Below, piece after piece: positions 18,203-37,660 of a stretch of DNA of 64,000 bases. The stretch's first letter is position 1; each line of letters opens with the position of its first letter. The position numbers and the translations under genes are program-made. Below the pieces are notes generated by a model, which made no database searches, was not told the origin of the DNA, and worked only from the letters and a program-made list of their open reading frames with translations. The DNA comes from Cellulophaga lytica DSM 7489 (GTDB lineage: Bacteria > Bacteroidota > Bacteroidia > Flavobacteriales > Flavobacteriaceae), in contig NC_015167.1 in assembly GCF_000190595.1 (NCBI RefSeq), forward strand, positions 2,283,501-2,347,500. The letters run 5' to 3'.

Positions 18203-19045
18203 TTAGCTAGGTAAAACCAATAACGGAATTTTTGTGTGGTAATCTGCATTTTCTAGCACAGGCTCTTGTATTAATTCCTCCAAATAACTACGGTTATTAT
18301 ATACTAATGCCAATGTATCTATTGTGTGGTCTTTTATAAAACTACTTATAATTTCAGATTTGTTTGCGTAAAACGGTAGTAAATGCAGTTTTAAAGGGAT
18401 ACTAGCCAAGCAGTTTTGTATTATTTTTAAGTTAGATTTTTGAAAATCATCTAATACAGTATTAGTTTTTAAATGAAGAATATGTACTGTACAGTTACAC
18501 ATTTTTGTTATAAATAATAAAGCTTGTAATGCTTCAGGGCTTAAACTTCTTTTAAGGTCAGTGGCTAAAACTAATTGTTTTGGTATGCCAAAGTTATAAT
18601 GGTTTGGAATAGCTAAAACTGGGCAATCTTTAATTGCATTTATAATATGCATTGTATTTGCGCCAATAAAAACACGTTTAAAATTTGTAATTCCTTTAGT
18701 ACCAGATATCACAAAGTTTATATGCTCGTTTTTAATGATATCTATAACCTCATGGGTTAGCAAATCAAAAGAGGATATAGTTTTGTAATTGTGTAATGGG
18801 TTACTGTGTTTTTGCTTTATGTATTCTATTGTTTTTTTTAAACCGTTTTTAGAAGCTGTTTCTGTATTCTTTTCTAAAACTAAAGTTTTAGAGTTTTCTG
18901 CCATAAACCTGCTATGTGGTATAGCCGGCACATAGGTGTTTAATAAGTAAAAAGTACAATTTTCTTTTTTAAAAAGCTCTAGAGCATAAGAAATTGCATT
19001 GTTTGCATTTTCAGAAAAATCTGTTGGTAAAAGTATATTTTTCAT
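18203..19045 (-). CDS. tandem universal stress protein (UspA family)
   Basis: A 280-residue protein made of two Usp domains. The first begins MKNILLPTDFSENANNAISYAL and ends with the usual nucleotide-loop region GTKGITNFKRVFIGANTMHI and CPVLAIP. The second half (from about residue 150, KQLVLATDLKRSL) is more divergent and lacks the GxxG-type loop, so it may not bind ATP. An operator-like box (19100-19111) lies about 55 bp upstream of the ATG. It has the same sequence type and promoter spacing as the boxes of the crp, ccoI and cco promoters. This places the gene in a Crp/Fnr-controlled low-oxygen or stress regulon. The biochemical role is unknown. Confidence 0.88.
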   Translation of the reverse strand: MKNILLPTDFSENANNAISYALELFKKENCTFYLLNTYVPAIPHSRFMAENSKTLVLEKNTETASKNGLKKTIEYIKQKHSNPLHNYKTISSFDLLTHEVIDIIKNEHINFVISGTKGITNFKRVFIGANTMHIINAIKDCPVLAIPNHYNFGIPKQLVLATDLKRSLSPEALQALLFITKMCNCTVHILHLKTNTVLDDFQKSNLKIIQNCLASIPLKLHLLPFYANKSEIISSFIKDHTIDTLALVYNNRSYLEELIQEPVLENADYHTKIPLLVLPS

Positions 19046-19068
19046 CAGACTGTATTAAATATCCAATG

Positions 19069-19076
19069 TAAAAATA
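19069..19076 (-). promoter_or_regulatory. probable -7 element of usp
   Basis: TATTTTTA on the minus strand matches TAnnTTTG in 7 of 8 positions. Its last base (19069) is exactly 36.5 bp from the centre of the operator at 19100-19111, the same spacing as at three other promoters in this window. Confidence 0.6.
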
Positions 19077-19099
19077 AAAGTAGTAGCAACCGTAAACTA

Positions 19100-19111
19100 T
19101 GATATTTGTCA
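19100..19111. promoter_or_regulatory. Crp/Fnr-type operator of usp
   Basis: TGATATTTGTCA fits TGAYA-N2-TRTCA. The outer TGA/TCA triplets have the same separation as in Crp and Fnr sites. It is located between the crp stop and the usp start, in an activating position. Confidence 0.7.
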
Positions 19112-19137
19112 GTTTTAAAACAGAAGCTTTTATAAAC

Positions 19138-19824
19138 CTATAAGCCGCTTACTACATTTTGTAATTTAACTAAGTCTTTTATACGAACTTGTTTTCCTGA
19201 AGTCTCAATCATACCTTTCTTTTTAAACTCAGATATAATTCTAATGGTAGATTCTGTTGCCGTACCTACAACATTACTCATATCTTCTCTGCTTAAACTT
19301 AATTTTAAAAAACCATTTTCATCTTCACCAAACTCATTTTTTAAATAGATAAAGGCTTCTGCAATACGTTGTTTTACTGTTTTTTGAGACATATTTACAA
19401 TAACATCATCTGCCTCTCTTAAATCATTGGCCATATGGCGCAATACCTCAACAGCAAAATTAGGATTGGTGTTTAAAGTATGTAAAATACTTTCTTTAGG
19501 AATAAAACAAAGATCTACATCTTTAATAGCTACAGCGCTTAAGTTAGCAGATTCTTCTGCAATTACAGAACGTTGCCCTAAAATCTCTCCTTTAGTAGCA
19601 AGTTTTATTATTTGGTCTTTTCCGTTGGAGCTAAGTTTAGATAGTTTAGACACGCCATCTCTAACACAAAATACACCGTCTAGACGCTCTCCTTCTTCAA
19701 AAATTGCATCACCTTTTTTATAAGTTTTAGAAACTTTGGTGTCAGATACTTTTTTTAACTCGTCTTTGCTCATAGCTCGTAACGAATTAAACTGACGAAT
19801 AATACAATTTTCACACCTACTCAT
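19138..19824 (-). CDS. Crp/Fnr family transcriptional regulator
   Basis: An effector domain (about residues 20-130, cyclic-nucleotide-binding fold with YKKGDAIFEEGERLDGVF and GEILGQRSV) is joined by the dimer helix to a C-terminal winged helix. The recognition segment ATESTIRIISEF keeps Glu and Arg four residues apart, the pair that reads TGA in Crp and Fnr. An N-terminal C-x2-C (C4, C7) and two more Cys (VFCVRDG, DLCFIPK) could hold an Fe-S cluster as in FNR. I chose ATG 19824 over the upstream GTG at 19842, because the -7 element (19847-19854) would overlap the transcript start there. It is divergent from ccoI, sharing one operator. Confidence 0.9.
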   Translation of the reverse strand: MSRCENCIIRQFNSLRAMSKDELKKVSDTKVSKTYKKGDAIFEEGERLDGVFCVRDGVSKLSKLSSNGKDQIIKLATKGEILGQRSVIAEESANLSAVAIKDVDLCFIPKESILHTLNTNPNFAVEVLRHMANDLREADDVIVNMSQKTVKQRIAEAFIYLKNEFGEDENGFLKLSLSREDMSNVVGTATESTIRIISEFKKKGMIETSGKQVRIKDLVKLQNVVSGL

Positions 19825-19846
19825 AACATTGTTTTTGCTCACAATA

Positions 19847-19854
19847 CAAATTTA
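19847..19854 (-). promoter_or_regulatory. -7 element of the Crp/Fnr regulator gene
   Basis: TAAATTTG on the minus strand, a perfect -7 match. Its last base is 36.5 bp from the centre of the shared operator 19878-19889, so the gene may be autoregulated. Confidence 0.75.
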
Positions 19855-19877
19855 CGGTTAATGTTAAAATCAAAACC

Positions 19878-19889
19878 TGACATTTGTCA
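19878..19889. promoter_or_regulatory. shared Crp/Fnr-type operator between crp and ccoI
   Basis: TGACATTTGTCA has perfect TGACA/TGTCA arms. Its centre (19883.5) is exactly 36.5 bp from the end of the -7 element on each side (19847 minus strand, 19920 plus strand), so one dimer could activate both divergent genes. Confidence 0.8.
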
Positions 19890-19912
19890 TATTTTAAAAT
19901 AGCACTTTAACA

Positions 19913-19920
19913 GACCTTTG
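19913..19920 (+). promoter_or_regulatory. probable -7 element of ccoI
   Basis: GACCTTTG differs from TAnnTTTG at one base. The spacing to the operator (36.5 bp) mirrors the crp side exactly, which supports it despite the mismatch. A weak core fits an activator-dependent promoter. Confidence 0.6.
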
Positions 19921-19941
19921 TTTTGGTCTAAAATGTTAAAG

Positions 19942-22317
19942 ATGATAAAAGAAAAATGTTTTCATTGTGGAGATGATTGTGACACAATACCTATTGTATT
20001 TAAAGGTAAGCATTTTTGTTGCAATGGATGTAAAACAGTCTTCGAAATTTTTGAGTCTAACGACTTAACTTATTACTATGACTTACAATCTGCTGCTGGT
20101 ACAACACCAAATGAAGTAGCGGATAAGTATAACTTTTTAGATGATCCTATAATTTTAAATAAGCTTATAGAGTTTAATGAAAAAAAACATCAAATAGTAA
20201 ATCTTTACATACCTCATATACATTGTAGTTCTTGTATTTGGGTTTTAGAAAACTTAAATAAATTGCAACAATCCATAAGTTCTTCTCAGGTAGATTTTCC
20301 AAAAAAAATGGTGCGTATTGCCTATAACCCAGAAGATTTAAGTTTAAAGCAGTTGGTTATTTTATTGGCTAAAATTGGGTATGAGCCATACATTTCTTTA
20401 GATGATTATGACAAAGGTAAAAAAAACGTAGACCGTAGTCTTATTTATAAATTAGGGGTTGCAGGTTTTGCTTTTGGTAACGTTATGTTTTTGTCTTTTC
20501 CGGAGTATTTTGAGGTGCAAGAGTTTTGGTTAGATCAATACAAAAATGTATTTAGGTGGTTAATGTTTGCTTTTTCATTGCCTGTAGTTTTTTATTCTGC
20601 ACAAGACTATTTAATATCTGCTTACAAAAGTATTTCTTCTAAAATTTTAAATATAGATGTGCCTATTGCATTAGGTGTTTTGGTGCTTTTTGTACGTAGT
20701 ACATTAGAAATTATTTTTGATTGGGGAACTGGTTTTTTTGATAGTTTAACAGGGTTGATATTTTTTCTGCTGCTAGGTAAATTTTTTCAACAAAAAACAT
20801 ATTCCTTTTTATCTTTTGAGCGCGATTATAAGTCGTACTTTCCAATAGCAGTAACCAGAATTGCAACCGGAGGAAAAGAAGAAACTGTGCAGGTTTATGA
20901 TATTAAGCAAGGAGACCGACTTTTAATTAGAAATGAAGAATTAATACCAGTAGATGGTATTGTATTAAAAGGTAATGCACGTATAGATTATAGTTTTGTT
21001 ACAGGAGAGTCTGAGGCTGTTGTAAAAGAAAGCGGAGATAAAATTTTGGCAGGTGGTAAGCAGTTGCAAGGAGCAATAGAAATGGAAGCTTTAAAAACGG
21101 TATCACAAAGTTACTTAACACAATTATGGGGAAATTCTGTTTTTTCTATAGATAAAACAAGCAAGTTCCAAACCATTACAGATAAAATTAGTCAGCGTTT
21201 TACAATTGCAGTTTTAAGTATTGCTTTTATGGCTACATTTATTTGGATGTTTATTGATAGTAGTAAGGCTATAAATGTTTTTACTGCGGTTTTAATAATT
21301 GCTTGCCCTTGTGCAATAGCATTAGCAGCACCATTTACATTGGGTAATATGTTGCGCATTTTTGGGCGTAAAAAATTCTATTTAAAAAACACACAAACTA
21401 TAGAGCAGTTAGCACAGTTAACTACAGCTATTTTTGATAAAACAGGAACCTTAACAACAGCTCAAAAAAGCACAGCTAGTTATGAGGGTATGGCGTTAAG
21501 CGCAGAAGAAGAATCGTTATTAAAAAATACATTAAGAGCCTCTAACCACCCTTTAAGTAGAACCCTTTATAATTTATTAGCAGCGCAAGATATTTTAACC
21601 TTAGATGATTATGAAGAACATTTAGGAAAAGGAATAATAGGAGTTTTAGAAGATAATAATATAAAAGTAGGGTCTGCAAATTTTGTTGGAAATAACAGTG
21701 TAACCGCACAAGAGAATACAGCTGTATACATTAGTAGTAATGATGCATACAAAGGCAAGTTTGTTTTTAGTAACCAATATAGAGAAGGTGTGTCTAAATT
21801 GTTTGAAGAAATGAAACAAACTTTAGATTTGGGTGTTTTATCTGGTGATAATGAAGGAGAAAAAGAACGTTTGCAAGCTTTGTTACCCAAATTAACTCCA
21901 CTTTACTTTAACCAGAAACCAGAAGATAAATTAGACTTTGTAAAGAGTTTACAAGAGCAAGGAAAAAAAGTGCTTATGGTTGGTGATGGTTTAAATGATG
22001 CTGGTGCTTTGGCACAAAGTAATGTAGGTATTGCTATATCAGAAAATGTAAATGTATTTTCACCTGCCTGTGATGGTATTTTAGATGCATCAAAATTTAA
22101 GCAATTGTACCAGTATATAAACGCATCTAAAAGTGCAATGAAAATTATAAAATTAAGTTTTGGTTTTTCTTTATTGTATAATTTAATTGGATTGTATTTT
22201 GCTACTACAGGACAATTAATGCCTGTTATTGCAGCTATATTAATGCCTTTAAGCTCTATAAGTATTGTTTTGTTTACTACTATTGCAACGAATTTAGTGG
22301 GTAAAAAAATAGAATAA
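19942..22317 (+). CDS. ccoI: copper-translocating P1B-type ATPase for cbb3 oxidase assembly (CcoI/FixI type)
   Basis: Inner-membrane Cu+ pump thought to supply copper to cbb3 oxidase. The N-terminus has a cysteine-rich metal-binding module (C6, C9, C13, C26, C27, C30), then an HMA-like domain with HCSSCIWVLENL near residue 100. The membrane metal site is C455-P456-C457, the phosphorylated aspartate is D499 in DKTGTLT, and the hinge is GDGLNDAGAL. I chose ATG 19942: the in-frame TTG at 19918 lies inside the -7 element, and ATG 19933 is the only close alternative. Its neighbours are the Crp/Fnr regulator and, across a porin gene, the cco operon; it differs from CopA at 32029 in lacking the CPMHP-type modules. 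Confidence 0.9.
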   Translation: MIKEKCFHCGDDCDTIPIVFKGKHFCCNGCKTVFEIFESNDLTYYYDLQSAAGTTPNEVADKYNFLDDPIILNKLIEFNEKKHQIVNLYIPHIHCSSCIWVLENLNKLQQSISSSQVDFPKKMVRIAYNPEDLSLKQLVILLAKIGYEPYISLDDYDKGKKNVDRSLIYKLGVAGFAFGNVMFLSFPEYFEVQEFWLDQYKNVFRWLMFAFSLPVVFYSAQDYLISAYKSISSKILNIDVPIALGVLVLFVRSTLEIIFDWGTGFFDSLTGLIFFLLLGKFFQQKTYSFLSFERDYKSYFPIAVTRIATGGKEETVQVYDIKQGDRLLIRNEELIPVDGIVLKGNARIDYSFVTGESEAVVKESGDKILAGGKQLQGAIEMEALKTVSQSYLTQLWGNSVFSIDKTSKFQTITDKISQRFTIAVLSIAFMATFIWMFIDSSKAINVFTAVLIIACPCAIALAAPFTLGNMLRIFGRKKFYLKNTQTIEQLAQLTTAIFDKTGTLTTAQKSTASYEGMALSAEEESLLKNTLRASNHPLSRTLYNLLAAQDILTLDDYEEHLGKGIIGVLEDNNIKVGSANFVGNNSVTAQENTAVYISSNDAYKGKFVFSNQYREGVSKLFEEMKQTLDLGVLSGDNEGEKERLQALLPKLTPLYFNQKPEDKLDFVKSLQEQGKKVLMVGDGLNDAGALAQSNVGIAISENVNVFSPACDGILDASKFKQLYQYINASKSAMKIIKLSFGFSLLYNLIGLYFATTGQLMPVIAAILMPLSSISIVLFTTIATNLVGKKIE

Positions 22318-22357
22318 AAAAAGAGCAGTTTTACAATTTGTAAAACTGCTCTTTTTA
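22316..22357. terminator. bidirectional terminator between ccoI and the porin gene
   Basis: A 15-16-bp near-perfect inverted repeat (22321-22336 with 22338-22353, tight loop) flanked by A and T runs. It serves both converging genes. Confidence 0.92.
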
Positions 22358-22375
22358 TGTGTAAAACATTAAAGT

Positions 22376-23635
22376 TTAATTGCCATTATAACTAAAAAAA
22401 TGTGGTTTAAAAGTAATCATAGCCCAAGCCCAATTGTTGGTCATAGAGGCGTCTCCTCCTTTAATAATTTCCATAGAATCAGAAGCAAACATTTGTGAGT
22501 ATCCGGCATTAAAAACTATACTTTTAGATGCTTTGTACCCAAGAGTAAGGTCTATTTCTGTACCTAAATAGCTATCTTGCTCTATACCGTTACCATTTAC
22601 TATAGTAGCAGCAGAACTAAAAAAGTGAGGTGCTAAGTTGGCAGAAAACTTATTTTTACTGTAATTAATTTTAGCGTTAATATCAACTAAGCCAACAGAG
22701 TTACTGTGGTTACCAACATAAAAATAATCCATAATACCATTATACCTGTGGTTGGTTCCAAACCAAGGAGTAAAAGAATTTAAATCGCTAGTAGTTTCGT
22801 TCATATCTGTCCCAGACATATACTCGGCTCCAAGCCCTACTAAAAACTCAGAGTTTAAGCTGTAGTTTATGATTGCACTGGCATTTAAAGCAGATAAATC
22901 TGAATTTTCAATTTTACCAGTTTGCAAATAAATTGATGCATTTGCACTCCATCTATTATCATTTAAGGCACTTGTTAAACCAATGGTTTGGTTGTACGCT
23001 ATTTTTTGTTCGTTATTGTCATCAAAAGCAAAACCAGTATTTAAAAATAAAAAGCTTAAACCTATTTTGTTAAACTTAGTGTTGTACCATAAATACTGAA
23101 AGTTTTTGTAGTTATTTAGGGTGTAATCTTCTTCAAAAATAGATTGTGATGTCTCGTTTAGTGCAAAACCAATATCTATTCTGTTAGTTGCATTTGGTTT
23201 AAATTTTATTCTAAGAGCATCGTGGCTTCTACCTTGTTGGTTCCAGTCTGCACGTCCAAAAATACGCTCTGTATCATAAGCAATATGTTGTCTTCCCAGT
23301 TTAAAACTCCATTTTCCTAAAAAAGCTTCTGCCCAAGCTTGTTGTAATGTTATGCCATTTGCATCTGTAGTAGATAATGTAGCAGCATCTCCCCAAACCC
23401 TTACATTTTGTGCAGCAACAAAGGCGTTAAATTCAGTTCCTTTGTAGTCAAAATTTAATCTAGTTCTTTGTGATACAAAAGAAGCAGGGTCAACGGCATC
23501 AGAATTTAAGGTGCTGTAACCGTTTCTAAACTCAAAACGTGGTTTTATTTCTGCATCTAAATTAAACTGTTGTGCATTTACTTGCTGTATTAAAAGTATT
23601 AAACCAGTAAAAAATGCATTCTTCAATAACTTCAT
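22376..23635 (-). CDS. outer-membrane porin of the alginate-export type
   Basis: A 419-residue outer-membrane barrel. The signal peptide MKLLKNAFFTGLILLIQQVNA is followed by QQFNLDAEIKPRFEFRNGY and many amphipathic strands. The segment LQQAWAEAFLGKWSFKLGRQ followed by ERIFGRADWNQQGRSHDALR is the recognisable alginate-export/porin signature. I start at ATG 23635; the ORF extends 10 codons further but that adds charged residues before the signal peptide. The gene sits between ccoI and ccoS, on the opposite strand, with its own -7 element (23663-23670). The substrate is unknown; the location suggests a solute used or released during low-oxygen respiration, which is inference. Confidence 0.8.
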   Translation of the reverse strand: MKLLKNAFFTGLILLIQQVNAQQFNLDAEIKPRFEFRNGYSTLNSDAVDPASFVSQRTRLNFDYKGTEFNAFVAAQNVRVWGDAATLSTTDANGITLQQAWAEAFLGKWSFKLGRQHIAYDTERIFGRADWNQQGRSHDALRIKFKPNATNRIDIGFALNETSQSIFEEDYTLNNYKNFQYLWYNTKFNKIGLSFLFLNTGFAFDDNNEQKIAYNQTIGLTSALNDNRWSANASIYLQTGKIENSDLSALNASAIINYSLNSEFLVGLGAEYMSGTDMNETTSDLNSFTPWFGTNHRYNGIMDYFYVGNHSNSVGLVDINAKINYSKNKFSANLAPHFFSSAATIVNGNGIEQDSYLGTEIDLTLGYKASKSIVFNAGYSQMFASDSMEIIKGGDASMTNNWAWAMITFKPHFFSYNGN

Positions 23636-23662
23636 ATTAGTTCTCTTTTTGTAATGTTTTTT

Positions 23663-23670
23663 CAAATATA
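23663..23670 (-). promoter_or_regulatory. -7 element of the porin gene
   Basis: TATATTTG on the minus strand, a perfect -7 match, 27 bp before the ATG. No good -33 TTG at standard spacing. Confidence 0.6.
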
Positions 23671-23752
23671 CTAGCTTTTATTACATAGGCTAATTACAAT
23701 CACAATCTTAACAGCTTATACCTCATAAATGTTTTTTAAAATTTCTTTAAAG

Positions 23753-23768
23753 TATGATATATATCATA
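23753..23768. promoter_or_regulatory. Crp/Fnr-type operator of the cco operon (perfect 16-bp palindrome)
   Basis: TATGATATATATCATA is a perfect palindrome that contains TGATATATATCA, an exact TGAT-N4-ATCA Fnr-like core. Its centre (23760.5) is 36.5 bp from the last base of the cco -7 element (23797). Confidence 0.8.
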
Positions 23769-23789
23769 TTATAAGAAGTGCATAGCCGG

Positions 23790-23797
23790 TAATTTTG
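23790..23797 (+). promoter_or_regulatory. -7 element of the cco operon
   Basis: TAATTTTG, a perfect -7 match, 20 bp before the ccoS ATG. The palindromic operator takes the place of a -33 element, so the promoter is probably activator-dependent. Confidence 0.75.
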
Positions 23798-23817: not shown

Positions 23818-24018
23818 ATGAGTGTAATTTATGTGTTGCTGTCTATAAGTATTATAGTGGCGTTGTTTTTCTTTTTAGCATTTATAATATCGGTAAAGAG
23901 TGGTCAATATGATGATTCTTATACACCATCTATACGTATGCTTTTTGAAGACGAATTGGTACAAAAGAGCTCTGAGACTCAAGAAAGTAAAAAAATCGAA
24001 CAAACTAAGATGAATTAA
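23818..24018 (+). CDS. ccoS: cbb3-type cytochrome oxidase assembly protein CcoS
   Basis: A small (66-residue) single-span membrane protein needed for cofactor insertion into cbb3 oxidase in studied bacteria. One membrane helix covers about residues 3-27 (VIYVLLSISIIVALFFFLAF), followed by KSGQYDDSYTPSIRMLFEDE, the characteristic CcoS segment after the helix. It is the first gene of the operon, followed by ccoNO after 3 bp. Length and order are typical of Bacteroidetes. Confidence 0.93.
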   Translation: MSVIYVLLSISIIVALFFFLAFIISVKSGQYDDSYTPSIRMLFEDELVQKSSETQESKKIEQTKMN

Positions 24019-24021
24019 ATT

Positions 24022-26220
24022 ATGGAAGTACAACAGTTTTATTACGACAATAAAATCGTAAAGAAATTTCTCTATGCTACAATATTTTGGGGTATTGTAG
24101 GAATGTCAGTGGGTCTGTTATTAGCCTTTATGTTTCTTTTTCCAAATTTAACCGATGGTATTTCATGGTTAAGTTTTGGTAGGTTAAGACCATTACATAC
24201 AAACGCAGTAATTTTTGCCTTTGTGGGTAACGCTATTTTTGCGGGAGTATATTACTCTACGCAGCGTTTGTTAAAGGCACGTATGTTTAGTGATGGGTTA
24301 AGTAATTTTAACTTTTGGGGTTGGCAAGCCATAATTGTAGCCGCAGCTATTACATTGCCATTGGGTTACAGCACATCTAAAGAGTATGCAGAACTAGAGT
24401 GGCCAATAGATATAGCTATTGCAGTAGTTTGGGTAGCTTTTGGTTGGAACCTTATAGGAACAATGTTGCGTAGAAGACAAAGACATTTGTATGTAGCAAT
24501 TTGGTTTTACTTAGCTACGTTTGTTACTGTAGCTGTACTGCATATATTTAATAGTTTAGAGCTGCCAGTAAGTGCACTAAAAAGTTACTCTGTTTATGCA
24601 GGTGTACAAGATGCATTGGTGCAGTGGTGGTATGGACATAATGCGGTAGCATTTTTCTTAACAACACCATTTTTAGGGTTAATGTATTATTTTGTACCTA
24701 AGGCAGCAAACAGACCTGTGTATTCTTACAGGTTATCTATAGTACACTTTTGGTCTTTAATATTTATTTATATCTGGGCAGGTCCTCACCACTTGTTGTA
24801 TTCTGCTTTACCAGATTGGGCACAAAATTTAGGTGTAGCATTCTCTATTATGTTACTTGCTCCGTCTTGGGGAGGTATGATAAACGGACTTTTGACCTTG
24901 CGTGGTGCTTGGGATAAAGTACGTACAGATCCTACGCTTAAATTTATGGTAGTAGCCATTACAGGTTATGGTATGGCAACTTTTGAAGGTCCTATGTTAT
25001 CATTAAAAAATGTAAATGCAATTGCGCATTTTAGTGACTGGATTATTGCTCACGTACACGTTGGAGCCTTAGCCTGGAACGGGTTTTTAACTTTTGGTAT
25101 GATCTACTGGTTGGTGCCAAAAATGTTTAAAGCAAGGTTACACTCTACTGGTTTAGCAAATGCCCACTTCTGGATTGGTACCTTGGGTATTATTCTTTAC
25201 GCATTGCCAATGTATGTAGCAGGGTTTACACAAGCCTTAATGTGGGAAGATTTTAATCCAGATGGAACTTTAGTTTATGGTAACTTTTTAGAAACCGTAA
25301 AAGAAATTATACCAATGTATTGGATGCGTGCAATAGGTGGTAGTATGTACATATTAGGTGCATTTATTATGCTGTATAATGTGTTTAAAACAGTACGTTC
25401 TGGCCAAAAAGTAGAAGATGAATTGGCAGAAGCTGCACCCCTTACAAGAGTATCTAAAAAAAGAACAAAAGGAGAAACATACCACTCTTGGTTAGAGCGT
25501 AAGCCTGTGCAATTAACCATATTGGCAACAGTAGCTATTTTAATTGGTGGTATAGTGCAAATTATACCTACAATACTAGTAAAATCTAACATACCAACAA
25601 TAACAAGTGTAAAACCGTATACACCTTTAGAGTTAGAGGGTAGAGATTTATATATAAGAGAAGGTTGTGTTGGTTGCCACTCGCAAATGGTACGTCCGTT
25701 TAGAGGAGAGGTAGAGCGTTACGGTGAGTATGCTAAAGCAGGAGAGTTTGTTTATGATCATCCATTTTTATGGGGAAGTAAGCGTACTGGTCCAGATTTA
25801 TTAAGAGTTGGTGGTAAATATTCAGACAATTGGCACTTAAACCATATGTACGATCCGCAAAGTACCTCATCTGGTTCTATAATGCCAGCCTACCAATGGC
25901 TTATACGTAATGAACATGATAGGAGCAATGTAAAAAGCAAAATGGAGGCTATGGTTTCTTTAGGTGTGCCTTATACAAAAGAAGATATTGCTAACGCAGA
26001 AAAATCTATGGAGGAGCAAGCTACTAAAATAGAAAAGAACCTATATACAGACCCAGATTTTGCAAAGAGCTACGAGGCAGATAAAAAGTTTGCTAAAGAT
26101 AACGGAAAGCCTTTTGTAGAAATGAAAGACAGGGAAATTGTATCTCTAATAGCTTATTTACAGCGTTTAGGTACAGATATTAAAATAAAGAATACAGAAG
26201 AAACAACTGCTAAAAAATAA
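24022..26220 (+). CDS. ccoNO: fused cbb3 cytochrome c oxidase subunits I and II (CcoN-CcoO)
   Basis: A high-affinity terminal oxidase catalytic subunit joined in one 732-residue chain to the membrane-anchored monohaem cytochrome. The CcoN part (about 1-470) has a dozen helices and haem/CuB histidines in LHTNAVIFAF, WYGHNAVAFF, GPHHLLY and HVHVGALAWNG. After a linker and a helix near 490-515, the CcoO part has the haem c motif C549-V-G-C-H553 and the Met ligand in GSIMPAYQWL. Proteobacteria encode these as two genes; the fusion is known from Bacteroidetes. The operon is driven by the Crp/Fnr-like operator at 23753. Confidence 0.96.
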   Translation: MEVQQFYYDNKIVKKFLYATIFWGIVGMSVGLLLAFMFLFPNLTDGISWLSFGRLRPLHTNAVIFAFVGNAIFAGVYYSTQRLLKARMFSDGLSNFNFWGWQAIIVAAAITLPLGYSTSKEYAELEWPIDIAIAVVWVAFGWNLIGTMLRRRQRHLYVAIWFYLATFVTVAVLHIFNSLELPVSALKSYSVYAGVQDALVQWWYGHNAVAFFLTTPFLGLMYYFVPKAANRPVYSYRLSIVHFWSLIFIYIWAGPHHLLYSALPDWAQNLGVAFSIMLLAPSWGGMINGLLTLRGAWDKVRTDPTLKFMVVAITGYGMATFEGPMLSLKNVNAIAHFSDWIIAHVHVGALAWNGFLTFGMIYWLVPKMFKARLHSTGLANAHFWIGTLGIILYALPMYVAGFTQALMWEDFNPDGTLVYGNFLETVKEIIPMYWMRAIGGSMYILGAFIMLYNVFKTVRSGQKVEDELAEAAPLTRVSKKRTKGETYHSWLERKPVQLTILATVAILIGGIVQIIPTILVKSNIPTITSVKPYTPLELEGRDLYIREGCVGCHSQMVRPFRGEVERYGEYAKAGEFVYDHPFLWGSKRTGPDLLRVGGKYSDNWHLNHMYDPQSTSSGSIMPAYQWLIRNEHDRSNVKSKMEAMVSLGVPYTKEDIANAEKSMEEQATKIEKNLYTDPDFAKSYEADKKFAKDNGKPFVEMKDREIVSLIAYLQRLGTDIKIKNTEETTAKK

Positions 26221-26224
26221 TATT

Positions 26225-26416
26225 ATGCTAAAGTTTATAAAAGGACATATGGAGAGTATGGAGGGTATAGCAACCTATCCTATGATATCATTACTTATAT
26301 TTTTTGTGTTCTTCACCATACTTTTTTGGTGGGTGTTTACAGCAACAAAAGAACATATTAAGGAGGTAAGTAACATACCTCTAGAAGATGATGATAAAAC
26401 CAACCTAACAAAATAA
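26225..26416 (+). CDS. ccoQ: cbb3 oxidase small subunit CcoQ/FixQ-like
   Basis: A 63-residue single-span membrane protein. A short polar N-terminus precedes one helix (about 18-40, YPMISLLIFFVFFTILFWWV) and an acidic C-terminal tail (PLEDDDKTNLTK). Position between ccoNO and ccoP, 4 bp after the former, and the length fit CcoQ, which stabilises the oxidase in studied systems. Sequence conservation in this family is low, so the call depends mainly on size, topology and position. Confidence 0.85.
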   Translation: MLKFIKGHMESMEGIATYPMISLLIFFVFFTILFWWVFTATKEHIKEVSNIPLEDDDKTNLTK

Positions 26417-26423
26417 TAGTACT

Positions 26424-27311
26424 ATGAAAAATATGACACCTTGGTGGATAAGGATACCTCTAGTTTTCTTTATCGTTTTTGGATTAATGGAATACTTTAT
26501 AGACTCTGGTGACCAACCAGCGTTTATAGCCTATCCAATTGTTTTAGGTTTTTTAGTATTGGTATTACTAATATTAATAGCGTCTGAAGTAATAGTTAGG
26601 TCTATTGAAAATGTAATGTTCCAAACATTGCCAGAAGAGGCAAAACAGAAATATTTAGAAGAAGATACTAAAAAGGTTGAGTGGAAATGGGGGAAAAGAG
26701 TTTATGCTAAACTATTAGGATCTAAACCTATGGAAGAAGAGCATGAAATAATTTTAGATCATAATTATGATGGTATACAAGAGTTAGATAACAATTTACC
26801 GCCATGGTGGGTGTATCTTTTTTATGCAGGTATCATATTTGGAGCAGTGTACTTAGCTAGATTTCATGTTTTTAATGATTATGACCAAGCATTGGAGTAT
26901 GAGCAAGATGTTGCTGCTGCAAAAATAGAAATAGAAGAGTATAAAAAAACCGCTAAAGGTTTAGTAGATGTAAACACAGTTGAAGTTTTAACAGATGCTG
27001 CAGATATAAAAGCTGGTGAAAAAATATACCAAACAAGTTGTGTTGCTTGTCATATTGCAGATGGTGGTGGTGGTATAGGACCTAACCTAACAGATGAATA
27101 TTGGCTTTTAGGTGGTGGTATTAAAAACGTTTTTAACACCATATCTGAAGGTGGTAGAGATGGTAAAGGTATGGTTGCTTGGAAACAAATATTAAAGCCG
27201 TTGGAGCGTGCACAAGTAGCTAGTTATGTATTAACACTACAAGGTACAACACCAGCAAATCCTAAAGAACCGCAAGGAGAAATTTGGAAACCAGAATCAA
27301 CAGAAGAATAA
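26424..27311 (+). CDS. ccoP: cbb3 oxidase cytochrome c subunit CcoP (monohaem)
   Basis: A membrane-bound cytochrome c that feeds electrons to the oxidase. The 295 residues show two N-terminal helices (about 9-27 and 34-56), a cytoplasmic linker, a third helix near 127-145 after LPPWWVYLF, then one periplasmic cytochrome domain. The haem motif is C206-V-A-C-H210, followed by GGGIGPNLTDEYW; Met ligand candidates lie in GKGMVAW. Proteobacterial CcoP carries two haems, so this is the shorter one-haem form. It starts 7 bp after ccoQ. MKNMTPWW or MTPWW are both possible starts; the first ATG is used. Confidence 0.93.
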   Translation: MKNMTPWWIRIPLVFFIVFGLMEYFIDSGDQPAFIAYPIVLGFLVLVLLILIASEVIVRSIENVMFQTLPEEAKQKYLEEDTKKVEWKWGKRVYAKLLGSKPMEEEHEIILDHNYDGIQELDNNLPPWWVYLFYAGIIFGAVYLARFHVFNDYDQALEYEQDVAAAKIEIEEYKKTAKGLVDVNTVEVLTDAADIKAGEKIYQTSCVACHIADGGGGIGPNLTDEYWLLGGGIKNVFNTISEGGRDGKGMVAWKQILKPLERAQVASYVLTLQGTTPANPKEPQGEIWKPESTEE

Positions 27312-27341: not shown

Positions 27342-28757
27342 ATGGCTGCAGATGAAAAGTTTAGGGATTCTATTGGTACAATAGATACTGACGGTAAAAG
27401 AGCTTGGGTTTTTCCAAAAAAACCTAGTGGTAAATTTTACAATTATCGCAAAATAGTTAGTTACACATTACTGTTGTTTTTGCTAGTATCTCCTTTTATA
27501 AAAATAAAGGGCAACCAATTTATATTGTTTAATGTAATAGATCGTCGTTTTAACATATTTGGTTTTCCTTTTTGGCCACAAGATTTTCATTTGGTCGTAA
27601 TATCAATGATTATAGGTGTGGTTTTTATCGCCTTATTTACTGTTGCTTTTGGGCGTATTTTTTGTGGTTGGATGTGTCCGCAAACCATTTTTTTAGAAAT
27701 GGTTTTTCGTAGAATAGAATATTGGATTGAAGGTGACCGTGGAGCACAAATACGTTTAGATAAGCAAAAGTGGGATGCTGTTAAAATTAGAAAAAGAGTA
27801 ACCAAATGGATTATCTTTTTTGTCATCTCGTTTATAATTGCTAACGTTTTTTTAGCATATTTAATTGGTAGTGATACGCTAATTAAATACATCACAGACG
27901 GACCATTGTTGCATACCAGTACAATGATATCATTATTAATTTTTACAGCAGTTTTCTATTTTGTTTTTGCTTGGTTTAGAGAGCAAGTATGTATTATAGC
28001 TTGTCCTTATGGGCGTATGCAAGGTGTACTTTTAGACAACAAATCTATTGTAGTAGCGTATGACCATAAAAGAGGAGAAGGGGAAAATGGAAGAAAAAAG
28101 TTTAGAAAAAATGAAGATCGTACAGCACTTGGTCATGGAGATTGTATAGACTGTGCCCAATGTGTAAACGTTTGTCCTACTGGCATAGATATAAGAAATG
28201 GTACACAACTAGAGTGTGTAAACTGTACAGCTTGTATAGATGAGTGTAATACCATAATGGAAAAAGTAAACTTGCCAAAAGGTTTAATTAGGTATGCTAG
28301 TGAAGATAATATAGAGAAAAAGACCAAGTTTAAATTTACACCAAGACTAAAAGGTTACTCGGCAGTTTTAATAATTTTAATAGGATTGCTTATTGGTATG
28401 CTGTTTTTAAGAAACGATTTAGAAGCAAATATTTTAAGACTTCCAGGTCAGTTATATGAACATAAAGAAGGAAACATAATTAGTAATGTATATACTTTTA
28501 AACTGGTGAACAAAACTACAGAGGATGTTACAGATGTTAGTTTTAAACTGTTATCCCATAAAGGAACAATTAAACTGGTTACACATAAAAACTTTAACGT
28601 GCCAGCACAAGAGCTGGCAGAAGGCACATTATTTATAGAAATTAATAATGCAGCTTTAAATGGTGACAAAGACAAGCTTAAAATAGGAGTGTATAGTAAT
28701 AATAAATTAGTAGAAACAACTACAGCACGTTTTTTAGCACCAAGAAGCTACAAATAA
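27342..28757 (+). CDS. ccoG: cbb3 oxidase accessory protein CcoG/FixG (polyferredoxin)
   Basis: An iron-sulfur membrane protein of 471 residues, implicated in copper reduction during cbb3 assembly. Membrane helices lie at about 35-52, 85-108, 150-172 and 190-215, then a ferredoxin region with CGWMCPQ (near 108), CIIACPYGRMQG (near 220), CIDCAQCVNVCPTG (near 268) and CVNCTACIDEC (near 290). The last helix (about 330-348) is followed by an IgG-like periplasmic C-terminal domain, as in other FixG proteins. All expected cluster cysteines are present. Fourth structural gene of the operon, 30 bp after ccoP. Confidence 0.95.
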   Translation: MAADEKFRDSIGTIDTDGKRAWVFPKKPSGKFYNYRKIVSYTLLLFLLVSPFIKIKGNQFILFNVIDRRFNIFGFPFWPQDFHLVVISMIIGVVFIALFTVAFGRIFCGWMCPQTIFLEMVFRRIEYWIEGDRGAQIRLDKQKWDAVKIRKRVTKWIIFFVISFIIANVFLAYLIGSDTLIKYITDGPLLHTSTMISLLIFTAVFYFVFAWFREQVCIIACPYGRMQGVLLDNKSIVVAYDHKRGEGENGRKKFRKNEDRTALGHGDCIDCAQCVNVCPTGIDIRNGTQLECVNCTACIDECNTIMEKVNLPKGLIRYASEDNIEKKTKFKFTPRLKGYSAVLIILIGLLIGMLFLRNDLEANILRLPGQLYEHKEGNIISNVYTFKLVNKTTEDVTDVSFKLLSHKGTIKLVTHKNFNVPAQELAEGTLFIEINNAALNGDKDKLKIGVYSNNKLVETTTARFLAPRSYK

Positions 28758-28769
28758 AAAAAATAAGTT

Positions 28770-29216
28770 ATGAAAATAAATTGGGGAACAGGAATAGTAC
28801 TGGCATTTGTAGGCTTCATTAGCTTTATATTATACTTTGTTGTTAGAATGAATTCTGAGAACAGGGCTAAACATGATTTGGTTACAGAGGAGTATTATAA
28901 GGCAGAGTTAGGGTATCAAAAAGAAATTAATGACGTTACCAATGCGTATAAATTAACCAATAAACTAGCTGTAGAAAAAACTGAAGATGGCTTATTAATA
29001 GCTTTTCCAAAGGATCAAGATTTTAATAAAATAACAGGTAAGGTGTCCCTATATAGACCATCTAATAAACAATTGGATTTTAGCTTACCCATAAGTTTAT
29101 CCAAAACACATTTGCTCATACCTGACAAACGTTTGTTAGATGGTCGGTGGGACATTAAAATTGCATGGGAATACAATAAAAAAGAATTTTTACACAAACA
29201 AAGTATAACGTATTAA
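28770..29216 (+). CDS. ccoH: FixH/CcoH family protein
   Basis: A 148-residue membrane-anchored protein. One N-terminal helix (about 5-25, WGTGIVLAFVGFISFILYFV) is followed by RAKHDLVTEEYYKAELGYQKEI, the recognisable FixH segment, and a beta-rich periplasmic domain. FixH/CcoH is needed for stable cbb3 oxidase in studied bacteria. The gene is 12 bp after ccoG and 2 bp before the next gene, so it is part of the operon. Confidence 0.9.
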   Translation: MKINWGTGIVLAFVGFISFILYFVVRMNSENRAKHDLVTEEYYKAELGYQKEINDVTNAYKLTNKLAVEKTEDGLLIAFPKDQDFNKITGKVSLYRPSNKQLDFSLPISLSKTHLLIPDKRLLDGRWDIKIAWEYNKKEFLHKQSITY

Positions 29217-29218
29217 GT

Positions 29219-29920
29219 ATGTTACTATCTGCTTTTATATTAGGGTTAATGGGAAGTTTGCACTGCGTAGGTATGTGTGGGCCCATAGCCTTTATGTTAC
29301 CAGTAGATAGGCATAGCAAACTAAAAAAAACTGTTCAGATCTTTATTTATCATATTGGTAGGTTGCTTGCTTACGGAGTAATAGGTCTTGTTTTTGGGCT
29401 GCTAGGTAAAGGTTTGTATGTTTTTGGTTTGCAACAAAAACTATCAATTGCAATAGGAATTTTAATGATTGTTATAGTATTAATTCCATCTGAAAAAATA
29501 CAAAAATACAATGTGTCTAAACCTATTTATAAGCTTATTTCTAAAGTAAAATCTAAATTAGGAAAGGAGCTTAAAAAAAGAACTCCAGATACGTTTTTAA
29601 CTATTGGTTTTTTAAACGGATTTTTACCGTGTGGCTTGGTATATATGGCATTGTTTGGAGCCATAGCTATGGGTAATGCAGCACAAGGCTCTTTGTATAT
29701 GATAATCTTTGGTGTAGGTACCATACCACTTATGACAATTGCTGTTTATTTTGGCGGAATGCTAAAAGGTGTTGCGCGTAAAAAAGTACAACAGTTAATT
29801 CCTGTTTTTGTAATTGTAATTGGAGTGTTGTTTATTCTTAGAGGCTTGGGCCTTGGTATTCCTTATGTGTCTCCTAAACCTGTTGTAGAAATGGTTTCTA
29901 CCAATATGGAGTGTCACTAA
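29219..29920 (+). CDS. TauE/SafE-type (DsbD_2-like) membrane protein of the cco operon
   Basis: A 233-residue protein of about six membrane helices. Cysteine motifs at equivalent places in the two halves, HCVGMCGPIAF (about 15-25) and NGFLPCGLVYMALF (about 137-150), are typical of the DsbD_2 / sulfite exporter TauE-SafE group found next to cbb3 genes. In other bacteria such proteins are linked to copper or thiol supply for cytochrome oxidase; that role here is inferred from position. It starts 2 bp after ccoH and appears to be the last operon gene. The next gene begins 20 bp later but has an unrelated function. Confidence 0.82.
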   Translation: MLLSAFILGLMGSLHCVGMCGPIAFMLPVDRHSKLKKTVQIFIYHIGRLLAYGVIGLVFGLLGKGLYVFGLQQKLSIAIGILMIVIVLIPSEKIQKYNVSKPIYKLISKVKSKLGKELKKRTPDTFLTIGFLNGFLPCGLVYMALFGAIAMGNAAQGSLYMIIFGVGTIPLMTIAVYFGGMLKGVARKKVQQLIPVFVIVIGVLFILRGLGLGIPYVSPKPVVEMVSTNMECH

Positions 29921-31401: not shown

Positions 31402-31959
31402 ATGCAAGAAACAATTTATATAAAAAATATGGTTTGCAACCGTTGTATAGCTTCGGTTTTAGATATTTTTAATGCTGAAGGTTATGTGGTGGAGTCTGTA
31501 GAATTAGGAAAAGTTATTGCTACAAAAGGTGCTAAAAGTAGTTTTAAAAACTTAAGTAAAATGCTTACCCAAATTGGTTTTGAAGTAATAGCTAACAAGA
31601 CAGATACTTTAATTGAACAATTAAAAGTGGCTATAATTCATAAGATCGAAAATGGAGAAACAGCTCATATTTTTCAGGCTTTAGCAAAAGAATTTGGTAA
31701 AACAGAAACAGCTCTTAGTAAGCTTTTTAGTAAGTCTGAAGGTGTAACGTTAGAGAAATACACCATCAACTTAAAAATAGAAAAAGTAAAGGAATACATA
31801 CAGTTAGGACAACTAAATTTTTCTGAAATAGCTTATAGTTTAAATTATAAAACAAGTAGCCATTTAGCCCGCCAGTTTAAAACTGTTACAGGAATGTCTA
31901 TGAGCGATTATAAAAATTTGGAGAATTGGGATAGAAAAACACTAGACCAAATTGTATAA
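31402..31959 (+). CDS. AraC-family regulator with N-terminal HMA-like metal-binding domain
   Basis: A 185-residue transcription regulator in two parts. Residues about 1-70 look like a heavy-metal-associated domain: YIKNMVCNRCIASVLDIF with C12 and C15 aligned exactly with the C12 and C15 of CopA next door. Residues about 85-180 form an AraC-type DNA-binding domain with two helix-turn-helix units (ALAKEFGKTETALSKLF, and FSEIAYSLNYKTSSHLARQF). This suggests that metal binding directly controls DNA binding of the copA region. No known effector domain of the classical AraC family is present. Copper as the metal is inferred from the neighbour. Confidence 0.85.
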   Translation: MQETIYIKNMVCNRCIASVLDIFNAEGYVVESVELGKVIATKGAKSSFKNLSKMLTQIGFEVIANKTDTLIEQLKVAIIHKIENGETAHIFQALAKEFGKTETALSKLFSKSEGVTLEKYTINLKIEKVKEYIQLGQLNFSEIAYSLNYKTSSHLARQFKTVTGMSMSDYKNLENWDRKTLDQIV

Positions 31960-35741: not shown

Positions 35742-37660
35742 CTTAATAGGTTTGATACTTTAAATCTAATATACACTAATTCTTGTATTTCCTTAATAGT
35801 TCTAAAGGTTCGTTTAAGTTTTATTTTCTCTGCTTTAGTTAGTTTGCTTAATGATATGTACCTGCCAGAATCGTTATGTAATAAACCTTGTTTGGTTCTA
35901 AATTTTAGTAATGCTTTGGTAGCATATGATGCAGCAATAAATAGTTCTGCGTTATTGGGTTCTAACTCGGCTAATTTTTCAAAACGCTCTGCAGTATAAT
36001 TAATAGACTTTATAGAGTGAGATAATATTAAAACTCTAGCTGCATCTGTTAATGGCATAAGCGCACGTCTTTTAATATCAAAAAAGTCTTTATTTGCACC
36101 ATCTTGCTCTACTAAAAATTGTCTAAAAAAACCGGTAGGAGATGGGTTTTGTAAAGATCCGCTAGCTAAATGTAAAAAGAAATTTGGGTAATTTTTAGCT
36201 GTTTCAAATATATGGTTTGATAGTTCTGTAACCAACTCTTGGTTGCCATATACATTGTTATAATCAAAAAATATAGATGATAACAATACTTCATCTTTAC
36301 CAGGATTTGTAATCCAAGATGTAACATTTGTTTTCCACTCACTAAGGCTTAAGCACCAATTTGGGTTAGAAGCCATCATTTCTGCAGGGCAATACTCGTA
36401 GCCAATAACGTTTAGTCTTTGTGTTACTTGTTTGGCAAAATTTATAAATATTGCTTTTGTTTCTTCTAGTTTTTCTGGTGGTACATCTTCAAAAACCAGA
36501 GCATTGTCTTGGTCTGTGTGCAATAATTGTTCGCTTCTGCCTTGGCTACCTAATGCAAGCCAACTAAAAGATACAGGTAACGGAGTACCTAACTTAGCAA
36601 TAGAATTTTTTATAATTTGTTTAATACAGGCATCATTTAACTCAGAAATAATTTTAGAAATTAATGTCATTGGTATATTCTGGTTTAAATATCCCTTTAA
36701 CAGCATCATAATACTTTTTCTTACCTGCTTAATTTCCTTAGTTCTAGTGGCTCTTTTTATTGCCTTAATTAGTACTGTTGGGTTATTGCCAACCGCAAGC
36801 ATAACATCATGTTTAGATAAAATACCAACAGCCTTAGAATTAACAGTACCATCTTTTGTTAAGCATAAATGGCTAATATTACTTTTTATCATTGCCATTT
36901 GTGCCTGCGTAATGGTTAATTTTTTTGAGTAAGTAATTACTGGAGATGTCATTATCTCTCTTGCAGGAGCAGAAATAGGTAGTTTCCCAGTAACAATTTT
37001 GTTACGCAAATCTTTGTCTGTAATAATACCAATGGGTAATTTGTCTTCTAAAACTAAAATAGCACCAACATTTTTGCTTGTCATTTTTGCAGCTAGCACT
37101 TTTGCTTGTGTTTTAGGAGAGCAACTTACTAGTTTTTTAGAATATTTTACAGGCTGCAAGTCAAACAACTCTGCACTAGGGTTGTAAACTTCTCCGCTTT
37201 CAGGCTCTCCGTATAAGGTACCTCTGTAGCTTTTAGAATAAGGGTTTCTAGTGTTAGAGGCAAAACTATCTATTAAAAAATTACCAACATCTCTGTTGCT
37301 AGTAGCAAATGGTTTAAAAGTAACAATAGGTATGGCGTATAATATACTTTCTTCATGTGCCTTTGCTTGCATTTTATAATTTTCATTAGCAATTAAAGGG
37401 CGTAAACCAAAAATATCTCCTTCATCACAAATATCTACAATAGTATTGGTTTCTGTTTTATTTAAAGATACGGCACCTTTATGTATAATATAAAAATGAG
37501 TATGTGGCGCATCATTTTCATTAAAAATAATAGCATCTTTTTCTTTATAAACAATAGATATTTGTGTAGCTAATTCTTGTAATTCTTCTAATAATAATTG
37601 ATTAAAAGGAGGGTAGTTTTTTAAAAAATCTGCTACTCTATGTGATATGGTATTTTTCAT
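35738..37660 (-). CDS. cNMP-binding/CBS/DUF294 nucleotidyltransferase-like protein
   Basis: A 640-residue cytosolic signalling-type protein. Order of domains: cyclic-nucleotide-binding fold (about 10-130, with HFYIIHKGAVSLNKTE and GDIFGLRPLI), two CBS repeats (about 165-295, adenine-nucleotide sensing), a DUF294 nucleotidyltransferase-like domain (about 320-450, with LGSQGRSEQLLHTDQDNA), and a helical C-terminal DUF294 domain (about 490-635). It resembles GlnD-type nucleotidyltransferases in the GSxGR...DxD pattern. It overlaps the exonuclease gene by 4 bp. No promoter consensus stands out in the 584-bp gap to the divergent speA. The target of any transferase activity is unknown. Confidence 0.85.
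   Translation of the reverse strand: MKNTISHRVADFLKNYPPFNQLLLEELQELATQISIVYKEKDAIIFNENDAPHTHFYIIHKGAVSLNKTETNTIVDICDEGDIFGLRPLIANENYKMQAKAHEESILYAIPIVTFKPFATSNRDVGNFLIDSFASNTRNPYSKSYRGTLYGEPESGEVYNPSAELFDLQPVKYSKKLVSCSPKTQAKVLAAKMTSKNVGAILVLEDKLPIGIITDKDLRNKIVTGKLPISAPAREIMTSPVITYSKKLTITQAQMAMIKSNISHLCLTKDGTVNSKAVGILSKHDVMLAVGNNPTVLIKAIKRATRTKEIKQVRKSIMMLLKGYLNQNIPMTLISKIISELNDACIKQIIKNSIAKLGTPLPVSFSWLALGSQGRSEQLLHTDQDNALVFEDVPPEKLEETKAIFINFAKQVTQRLNVIGYEYCPAEMMASNPNWCLSLSEWKTNVTSWITNPGKDEVLLSSIFFDYNNVYGNQELVTELSNHIFETAKNYPNFFLHLASGSLQNPSPTGFFRQFLVEQDGANKDFFDIKRRALMPLTDAARVLILSHSIKSINYTAERFEKLAELEPNNAELFIAASYATKALLKFRTKQGLLHNDSGRYISLSKLTKAEKIKLKRTFRTIKEIQELVYIRFKVSNLLR

Follow-up and report, generated by a model that had tools for sequence, protein, structure and literature searches.

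Does the inverted repeat that precedes the cytochrome oxidase genes of Cellulophaga lytica DSM 7489 serve a local arrangement or a wider regulon, and which protein is likely to read it? The question is raised by a stretch of 64,000 nucleotides (NC_015167.1, positions 2,283,501 to 2,347,500; 'the window' below, with positions counted from its first letter), in which a box of the form TGAYA-N2-TRTCA stands in four promoters, namely those of a universal stress protein gene (usp), of the gene of a CRP/FNR-family regulator (crp), of ccoI and of the ccoS-NO-Q-P-G-H operon for a cbb3 oxidase. An earlier model-made reading of the letters alone (the original prediction) had taken them for a local regulon of one operator and four promoters. 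Our best explanation, to which we give a probability of roughly 0.7, is that these promoters are core members of a low-oxygen regulon in the Flavobacteriaceae, read by the encoded regulator at boxes centred at −41.5.

The boxes and their spacings can be read directly from the sequence: the box centres lie at 19105.5, 19883.5 and 23760.5, each exactly 36.5 bp from the last base of a −7 element. The usp operator (TGATATTTGTCA, 19100..19111, an exact match to the pattern) faces a −7 element on the minus strand (TATTTTTA, 19069..19076, last base 19069). The second operator (TGACATTTGTCA, 19878..19889) is common to the divergent crp and ccoI promoters and serves both directions, with the −7 element of crp on the minus strand (TAAATTTG, 19847..19854, last base 19847) and that of ccoI on the plus strand (GACCTTTG, 19913..19920, last base 19920). 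The third operator (TGATATATATCA, 23755..23766) lies within a perfect 16-bp palindrome (TATGATATATATCATA, 23753-23768) and is followed on the plus strand by the −7 element of the cco operon (TAATTTTG, 23790..23797, last base 23797); no strand is assigned to the operators themselves. The three boxes and four spacings had been given correctly to the base in the original prediction, which was equally right about the palindrome and about the box in the regulator's own promoter. Within the window, a relaxed form of the pattern fits these four promoters and no others. Nevertheless, taken without the rest of the genome, the window count is thin evidence and only suggestive, with three matches to TGAYA-N2-TRTCA against 0.30 expected and three reached in two of 100 shuffles.

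The scan of the complete genome that had been proposed is more informative. In the single contig of 3,765,936 bp, exact sites number 16, against 22 for the reversed pattern; the exact box shows no enrichment by itself, and the weight of the evidence lies on box and spacing together. All eight intergenic exact boxes (one of which shares the last three bases of the preceding gene) are flanked, on one side or both, by a TAnnTTT[A/G] whose last base is exactly 36.5 bp away from their centre, versus none of the eight intragenic ones, that is, those within an open reading frame (ORF) of at least 80 amino acids.

The same geometry extends across the family. Among strict boxes of 80 loci drawn from named Flavobacteriaceae records (the nearest being that of Cellulophaga omnivescoria, whose regulator is 98% identical), a TAnnTTTR element was found at a gap of 23, equivalent to the 36.5-bp spacing, in 149 of 338 readings, both strands being counted; over gaps from 5 to 59, gap 9 gave 17, gap 17 gave 6, gap 22 gave 2, gap 24 gave none and the others two at most. 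In 149 Flavobacteriaceae genomes, one per genus with C. lytica included, the strict box with gap 23 and TAnnTTTR was matched 754 times (eight of these in C. lytica itself) versus four times for the reversed pattern, and 123 genomes carried at least one match. The pattern occurred in 118 of the 123 genomes with a homologue of the regulator at an E-value of 1e-20 or better versus five of the 26 without (Fisher p = 1.8e-16), genome size being a partial confounder since several of the 26 are small. Conservation is also seen promoter by promoter: with a relaxed box defined as TGA-N6-TCA plus two of the four degenerate bases, the relatives keep it in front of usp in 75 of 77 cases (57 strict), ccoI in 77 of 77 (62 strict), ccoS in 66 of 67 (45 strict) and crp in 62 of 80 (53 strict), the other 18 crp promoters having no such box. 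Thus, the single operator and the four promoters of the original prediction stand, whereas the word 'local' does not, the pattern being both genome-wide and family-wide.

Aligned over the 262 promoter readings with a near −7 element, to which the common crp/ccoI box contributes once in each direction, the sites give the logo AAAA-n-[C/A]-TGAYA-[A/T][A/T]-TRTCA-[T/G]-n-[T/G]TTT. Flanked in this way by an A tract and a T tract, the operator extends to a near-palindrome of 24 bp (AAAAnM-TGAYAWWTRTCA-Kn-TTTT) that is in register with the consensus sequences of CRP and FNR. Immediately before TGA, where the FNR box carries T and the CRP box G, the readings have C in a fraction of 0.69, A in 0.30, G in 0.01 and T in 0.00. 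Compared with the classical FNR operator, TTGAT-N4-ATCAA, the site shares the TGA-N6-TCA core and differs in the base before TGA, so it is not a classical FNR box.

Start sites mapped in Flavobacterium psychrophilum place the sigma-A element TAnnTTTG at −12 to −5 (PMC9723704). With the last base of the element at −5, a spacing of 36.5 bp puts the box centre at −41.5, so that in F. psychrophilum numbering the operator is predicted to occupy the class II position; the fixed phase for class II activation that had been proposed is thereby supported by sequence. The same arithmetic sets the right-hand T tract at −33 to −30, and predicts start sites in the window at 19064, 19842, 19925 and 23802, with leaders of 16-19 nt. 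Bacteroidota promoters carry an upstream element at about −33 to −30.

One of the four promoters departs from the consensus in a regular way. In 77 promoters of relatives, the ccoI −7 element begins with C in 49, G in 15, A in 13 and T in none, and the rest of the element is nearly fixed (A in 77/77, TTT in 77/77, G in 76/77), giving VAnnTTTG; by contrast, T comes first in 75 of 75 usp and 66 of 66 ccoS promoters. In the 62 crp promoters with a box, each of the three T positions of the −7 element is occupied by T in 46 or 47. The ccoI element, which had been called a near match, is thus correctly spaced, but is a conserved VAnnTTTG rather than a decayed TAnnTTTG. So constant a departure from the consensus at the first base suggests that ccoI depends on an activator and may be kept silent without one.

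What the boxes precede can be named from the encoded proteins. The usp gene (18203..19045, minus strand) matches PF00582. The CcoI-type heavy-metal P-type ATPase (19942..22317, plus strand, with alternative starts at 19933 and 19918) has subfamily matches, the copper ATPase model remaining below its cut-off; its name is based on position and likeness, and its start was picked by leader length. The cco operon follows on the plus strand, with ccoS (23818..24018; PF03597, TIGR00847 over cut-off), a ccoNO fusion of cbb3 oxidase subunits I and II (24022..26220; NF011053 over cut-off), a small ORF in place of ccoQ (26225..26416; no family match, named by position only), a ccoP-like cytochrome c subunit (26424..27311; TIGR00782 below cut-off), ccoG (27342..28757; TIGR02745 over cut-off), ccoH (FixH; 28770..29216; PF05751) and a DsbD_2 membrane protein gene (29219..29920; PF13386) that is the last of the likely operon. 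Outside the window, the targets in C. lytica are the oxygen-independent coproporphyrinogen oxidase hemN (TIGR00538 over cut-off), a metallo-beta-lactamase/rhodanese-like protein and a thioredoxin-reductase-like flavoprotein (both named by likeness, with family matches below cut-off), a 152-aa protein without family match that is followed on the same strand by ArsC-like and usp-like ORFs, and a 43-aa membrane peptide. A 43-aa membrane-like peptide in L017 (10145-10273, minus strand) comes right after an exact box and −7 element, with hemN and a usp-like gene nearby.

A genome of another genus, G141, whose orthologue is 58% identical, has 17 strict sites, and its targets include pyruvate formate-lyase (pfl), hemN, glutamyl-tRNA reductase (hemA), a phosphotransacetylase-like protein (pta), HypA, the small subunit of a NiFe hydrogenase and several proteins called usp-like by likeness; some of the proteins in this list are truncated by the end of the stretch analysed. 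Judged by sequence, the targets are of FNR type, with hemN and, in G141, also pfl, pta, hemA and hydrogenase genes. The low-oxygen character ascribed to the targets is thereby supported by sequence. This is consistent with F. psychrophilum, where the cbb3 oxidase and heme-synthesis enzymes are described as strongly induced under oxygen limitation (PMC9723704). Two neighbours of the cco operon may be mentioned here. The porin gene at 22376-23635 was rejected as a divergent target of the cco box, the 8-mer at the right distance (CATTTATG) being no fitting −7 element; this gene was found in just two of the 80 loci. At 31402-31959 lies a gene for an AraC-type helix-turn-helix (HTH) protein, with HTH as its only family match and an N-terminal MVCNRC stretch that resembles a metal-binding one.

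The regulator itself (19138..19824, minus strand) comprises 228 aa from the ATG at 19824, which is most likely its translation start: the longest ORF begins at GTG 19842, a codon that would coincide with the predicted start site of transcription. It consists of a cNMP-binding beta-roll (PF00027) and an HTH_Crp domain (PF13545), both over curated cut-offs. The classical FNR model NF008365 is its best NCBIfam match, yet at 97.5 bits it stays below the cut-off of 228. In the recognition helix, TATESTIR, E191 and R195 form the E-x3-R pair; the Glu/Arg pair that had been proposed to read TGA is indeed there, and occurs in 100 of 101 near rows of the alignment (window included), the remaining row being gapped at that place.

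The original prediction had also mentioned extra cysteines; they exist, and can be refined to an invariant set of Cys4, Cys7, Cys53 and Cys106 that lacks the third N-terminal cysteine of FNR. Sorted by identity, the 214 collected rows comprise 123 at 45% or more, 45 at 30-45%, and 46 in neither count (below 30%, or second matches of a locus below 45%). The C-x2-C motif, Cys53 and Cys106 are found in all 123 rows at 45% or more, a set that counts the window protein twice and includes close species. As one of the six seed peptides contains Cys106, rows with that residue may be favoured, a bias from which the rows of the genome search are free; a row set preselected for the four cysteines was not counted as evidence for them. 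Alignments of the near rows show four invariant cysteines and no fifth. Where classical FNR has its third N-terminal cysteine the regulator has Asn13, and C-x2-C-x3-7-C occurs in none of the 123 rows. Cys4, Cys7 and Cys106 align with cysteines of Aliivibrio fischeri FNR known as its cluster ligands, and Cys53 falls on an Ala of that protein. Judged by these sequences, the regulator is FNR-like and not a classical FNR. In the predicted structure (pLDDT 93.8), Cys53 lies on strand 50-56 and Cys106 on strand 103-109, two strands that run side by side in the standard beta-roll. Its alignment with holo-FNR begins at residue 1-2, whereas that with apo or degraded FNR begins only at residue 22-30.

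From these features we infer that the window regulator is the binder of the box, an activator and a [4Fe-4S] oxygen sensor. A dimer would bind the 24-bp operator centred at −41.5 and contact RNA polymerase at the Bacteroidota −7 element (TAnnTTTG/A, −12 to −5), and this contact would activate usp, the regulator's own gene, ccoI and ccoS-NO-Q-P-G-H. Oxygen would be sensed through a cluster held by Cys4, Cys7, Cys53 and Cys106, in which Cys53 of the beta-roll may stand in as ligand for the third N-terminal cysteine of Escherichia coli FNR. The further idea that this is a Bacteroidota-wide variant of FNR, with the ligand moved to Cys53, rigid −41.5 promoters of the TAnnTTTG type and ccoI strength tuned by an off-consensus −7 element, seems to us evenly balanced between true and false.

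Several observations weigh against the proposed regulon and its sensor. Box and spacing occur in 31 of 32 genomes with only distant homologues (E-values from 1e-44 to 1e-20), so the box is not diagnostic of the window regulator and its use as a marker of this regulator alone is ruled out. Conversely, the strict box is absent from four of the 91 genomes with a homologue at 1e-44 or better; in three of these four, ccoNO is preceded by a box with a single mismatch at gap 23, the −7 element being imperfect in one case (TAATTTCG), and in the fourth no such box was found. C. lytica itself has a second paralogue with a similar E-x3-R helix and a CxxCx4C motif plus Cys106. The structural model aligns from residue 1-2 with CRP-type proteins as well (e.g. 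GlxR and MtbCRP), and the protein closest to it by sequence as well as by fold, 2gau, lacks both Cys53 and Cys106; consequently, the fold is no argument for a cluster. In a tree of 94 sequences, the exchange between Cys53 and the third N-terminal cysteine gives only three independent pairs on starred branches, too few to serve as statistical proof of a replacement, and the absence of Cys53 from all 22 rows of the class with C-x2-C-x4-C plus Cys106, plain as the contrast is, may reflect one event. Finally, the hypoxia genes of F. psychrophilum also belong to its iron-scarcity response (PMC9723704), an overlap that a simple switch activated by an Fe-S cluster does not predict.

The strongest of the alternatives, possible though in our view clearly less likely than the proposed regulon, is that the box is a common operator of several CRP/FNR paralogues, including receiver-CRP fusions and the CxxCx4C paralogue, among which the regulator next to ccoI would be one or would not be the main one. 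The genomes with only distant homologues agree with this: box and spacing are kept by many relatives that have no close orthologue, so paralogues probably read the box too. The C. lytica paralogue (G000:843013-843681; loci L147 / L241) combines C-x2-C-x4-C with the helix TTEEQVIR, and homologues whose open frames run to about 350-370 aa are common across the family and may use this operator as well; two of them (L164 and L166, from genomes G013 and G004) begin, by reading of the sequence, with a receiver-like part that precedes the CRP-like one. However, no receiver-CRP fusion was present among the C. lytica homologues found, and the orthologue's own promoter keeps the box in 62 of the 80 loci. 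A genome of the same genus, G006, with a paralogue of 33% identity and no close orthologue, has a single match, at gap 24 and not 23; as G006 also lacks ccoNO, it is not a clean test. It belongs to eight hand-picked genomes without the strict box, four of which have the cbb3 oxidase (ccoNO) together with the regulator or a 40-42% homologue, and four of which have neither, a distribution that favours the proposed regulon.

The paralogues can be described further. Ten of the 12 matches to the cNMP-binding domain in C. lytica were aligned, one being left out for its length, and among the ten only the window regulator has the four-cysteine set. A second CRP-like match occurs in 14 of the 80 named loci and sometimes lies between ccoI and crp. 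At L070, L074, L087, L089, L101, L105, L108, L109, L122, L123, L125 and L127 this second paralogue keeps Cys53 and mostly Cys106, with Asn in place of the Arg of the recognition helix in 12 of the 12 helices displayed; L128 has His. A relaxed box at the right spacing stands upstream of the second paralogue at L070. In the window, at about 37307-37543 on the minus strand, a cNMP-binding domain lies in a 618-aa ORF and is followed, by reading, by a CBS-like sequence.

A second alternative accepts the regulator and changes its chemistry: a dithiol/disulfide switch among the four cysteines, or heme, would take the place of the [4Fe-4S] cluster. We consider this unlikely, though by a small step only less plausible than a shared operator. 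The adjacent predicted strands of Cys53 and Cys106 speak for it, as does the iron-scarcity overlap of the hypoxia genes in F. psychrophilum (PMC9723704), and two CRP/FNR-family proteins of Porphyromonas gingivalis, HcpR and PgRsp, bind heme (PMC12040651). On the other hand, a cluster is favoured by the correspondence of Cys4, Cys7 and Cys106 to known FNR ligands and by the exact number of four invariant cysteines without a fifth.

It is improbable that the box represses, say by keeping the promoter blocked in air: the operator does overlap the −33 region, so that blocking could occur, but a repressor has no need of the rigid spacing seen at gap 23 (149 readings, against two at gap 22 and none at gap 24), and the conserved off-consensus −7 element of ccoI fits the need for an activator. 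Chance matches in an AT-rich genome, for which the two shuffles in 100 and the lack of enrichment of the exact box alone could be quoted, have a negligible probability and are ruled out by the counts of box plus spacing (754 versus four, and eight of eight intergenic sites).

How does the proposed regulon compare with known systems? The window regulator shares with the FNR proteins of E. coli and A. fischeri the fold, the E-x3-R helix reading TGA, the equivalents of Cys20, Cys23 and Cys122 (window Cys4, Cys7 and Cys106), the class II position at −41.5 and the logic of the targets (cbb3 oxidase, hemN, pfl, hydrogenase). Unlike FNR, it has no equivalent of the third N-terminal cysteine, Cys29, has an invariant Cys53, and carries Ile rather than Ser ahead of the helix Arg; the operator, likewise, puts C or A in front of TGA, against T in the FNR box. 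In Proteobacteria, FixK2, FnrL and FnrN control the cbb3 oxidase genes fixNOQP. The flavobacterial protein is similarly a CRP/FNR protein predicted to activate cbb3 oxidase genes at low oxygen, but differs in the Bacteroidota −7 element, in its cysteine set and in the usp targets.

Within the Bacteroidota, the oxygen-limitation response of F. psychrophilum resembles the proposed regulon in its cbb3 oxidase and heme-synthesis genes and in the −7 element (PMC9723704), and in the main text of that paper words beginning with CRP or FNR occur zero times. CrpPg, HcpR and PgRsp of P. gingivalis are further CRP/FNR-family regulators of this phylum (PMC12040651); those that bind heme contrast with the window regulator, read here as an Fe-S candidate. 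The P. gingivalis protein 2gau is the closest solved structure. CRP/FNR homologues of Flavobacteriales have been assigned to carbon sensing in one published analysis (PMC8510549), and among the open-access papers that the literature searches listed, none was seen to describe an FNR-type oxygen regulon of Flavobacteriaceae or its operator.

In soil, in the sea and in fresh water, Flavobacteriaceae account for a major part of the communities (PMC9723704). For the whole of this family, the low-oxygen regulon proposed here would provide a ready operator, a promoter rule and a list of genes. It would also offer a natural test of whether the cluster site of FNR can be rebuilt with a displaced ligand; if Cys53 does hold the cluster, the displacement would alter how the loss of the cluster reaches the dimer.

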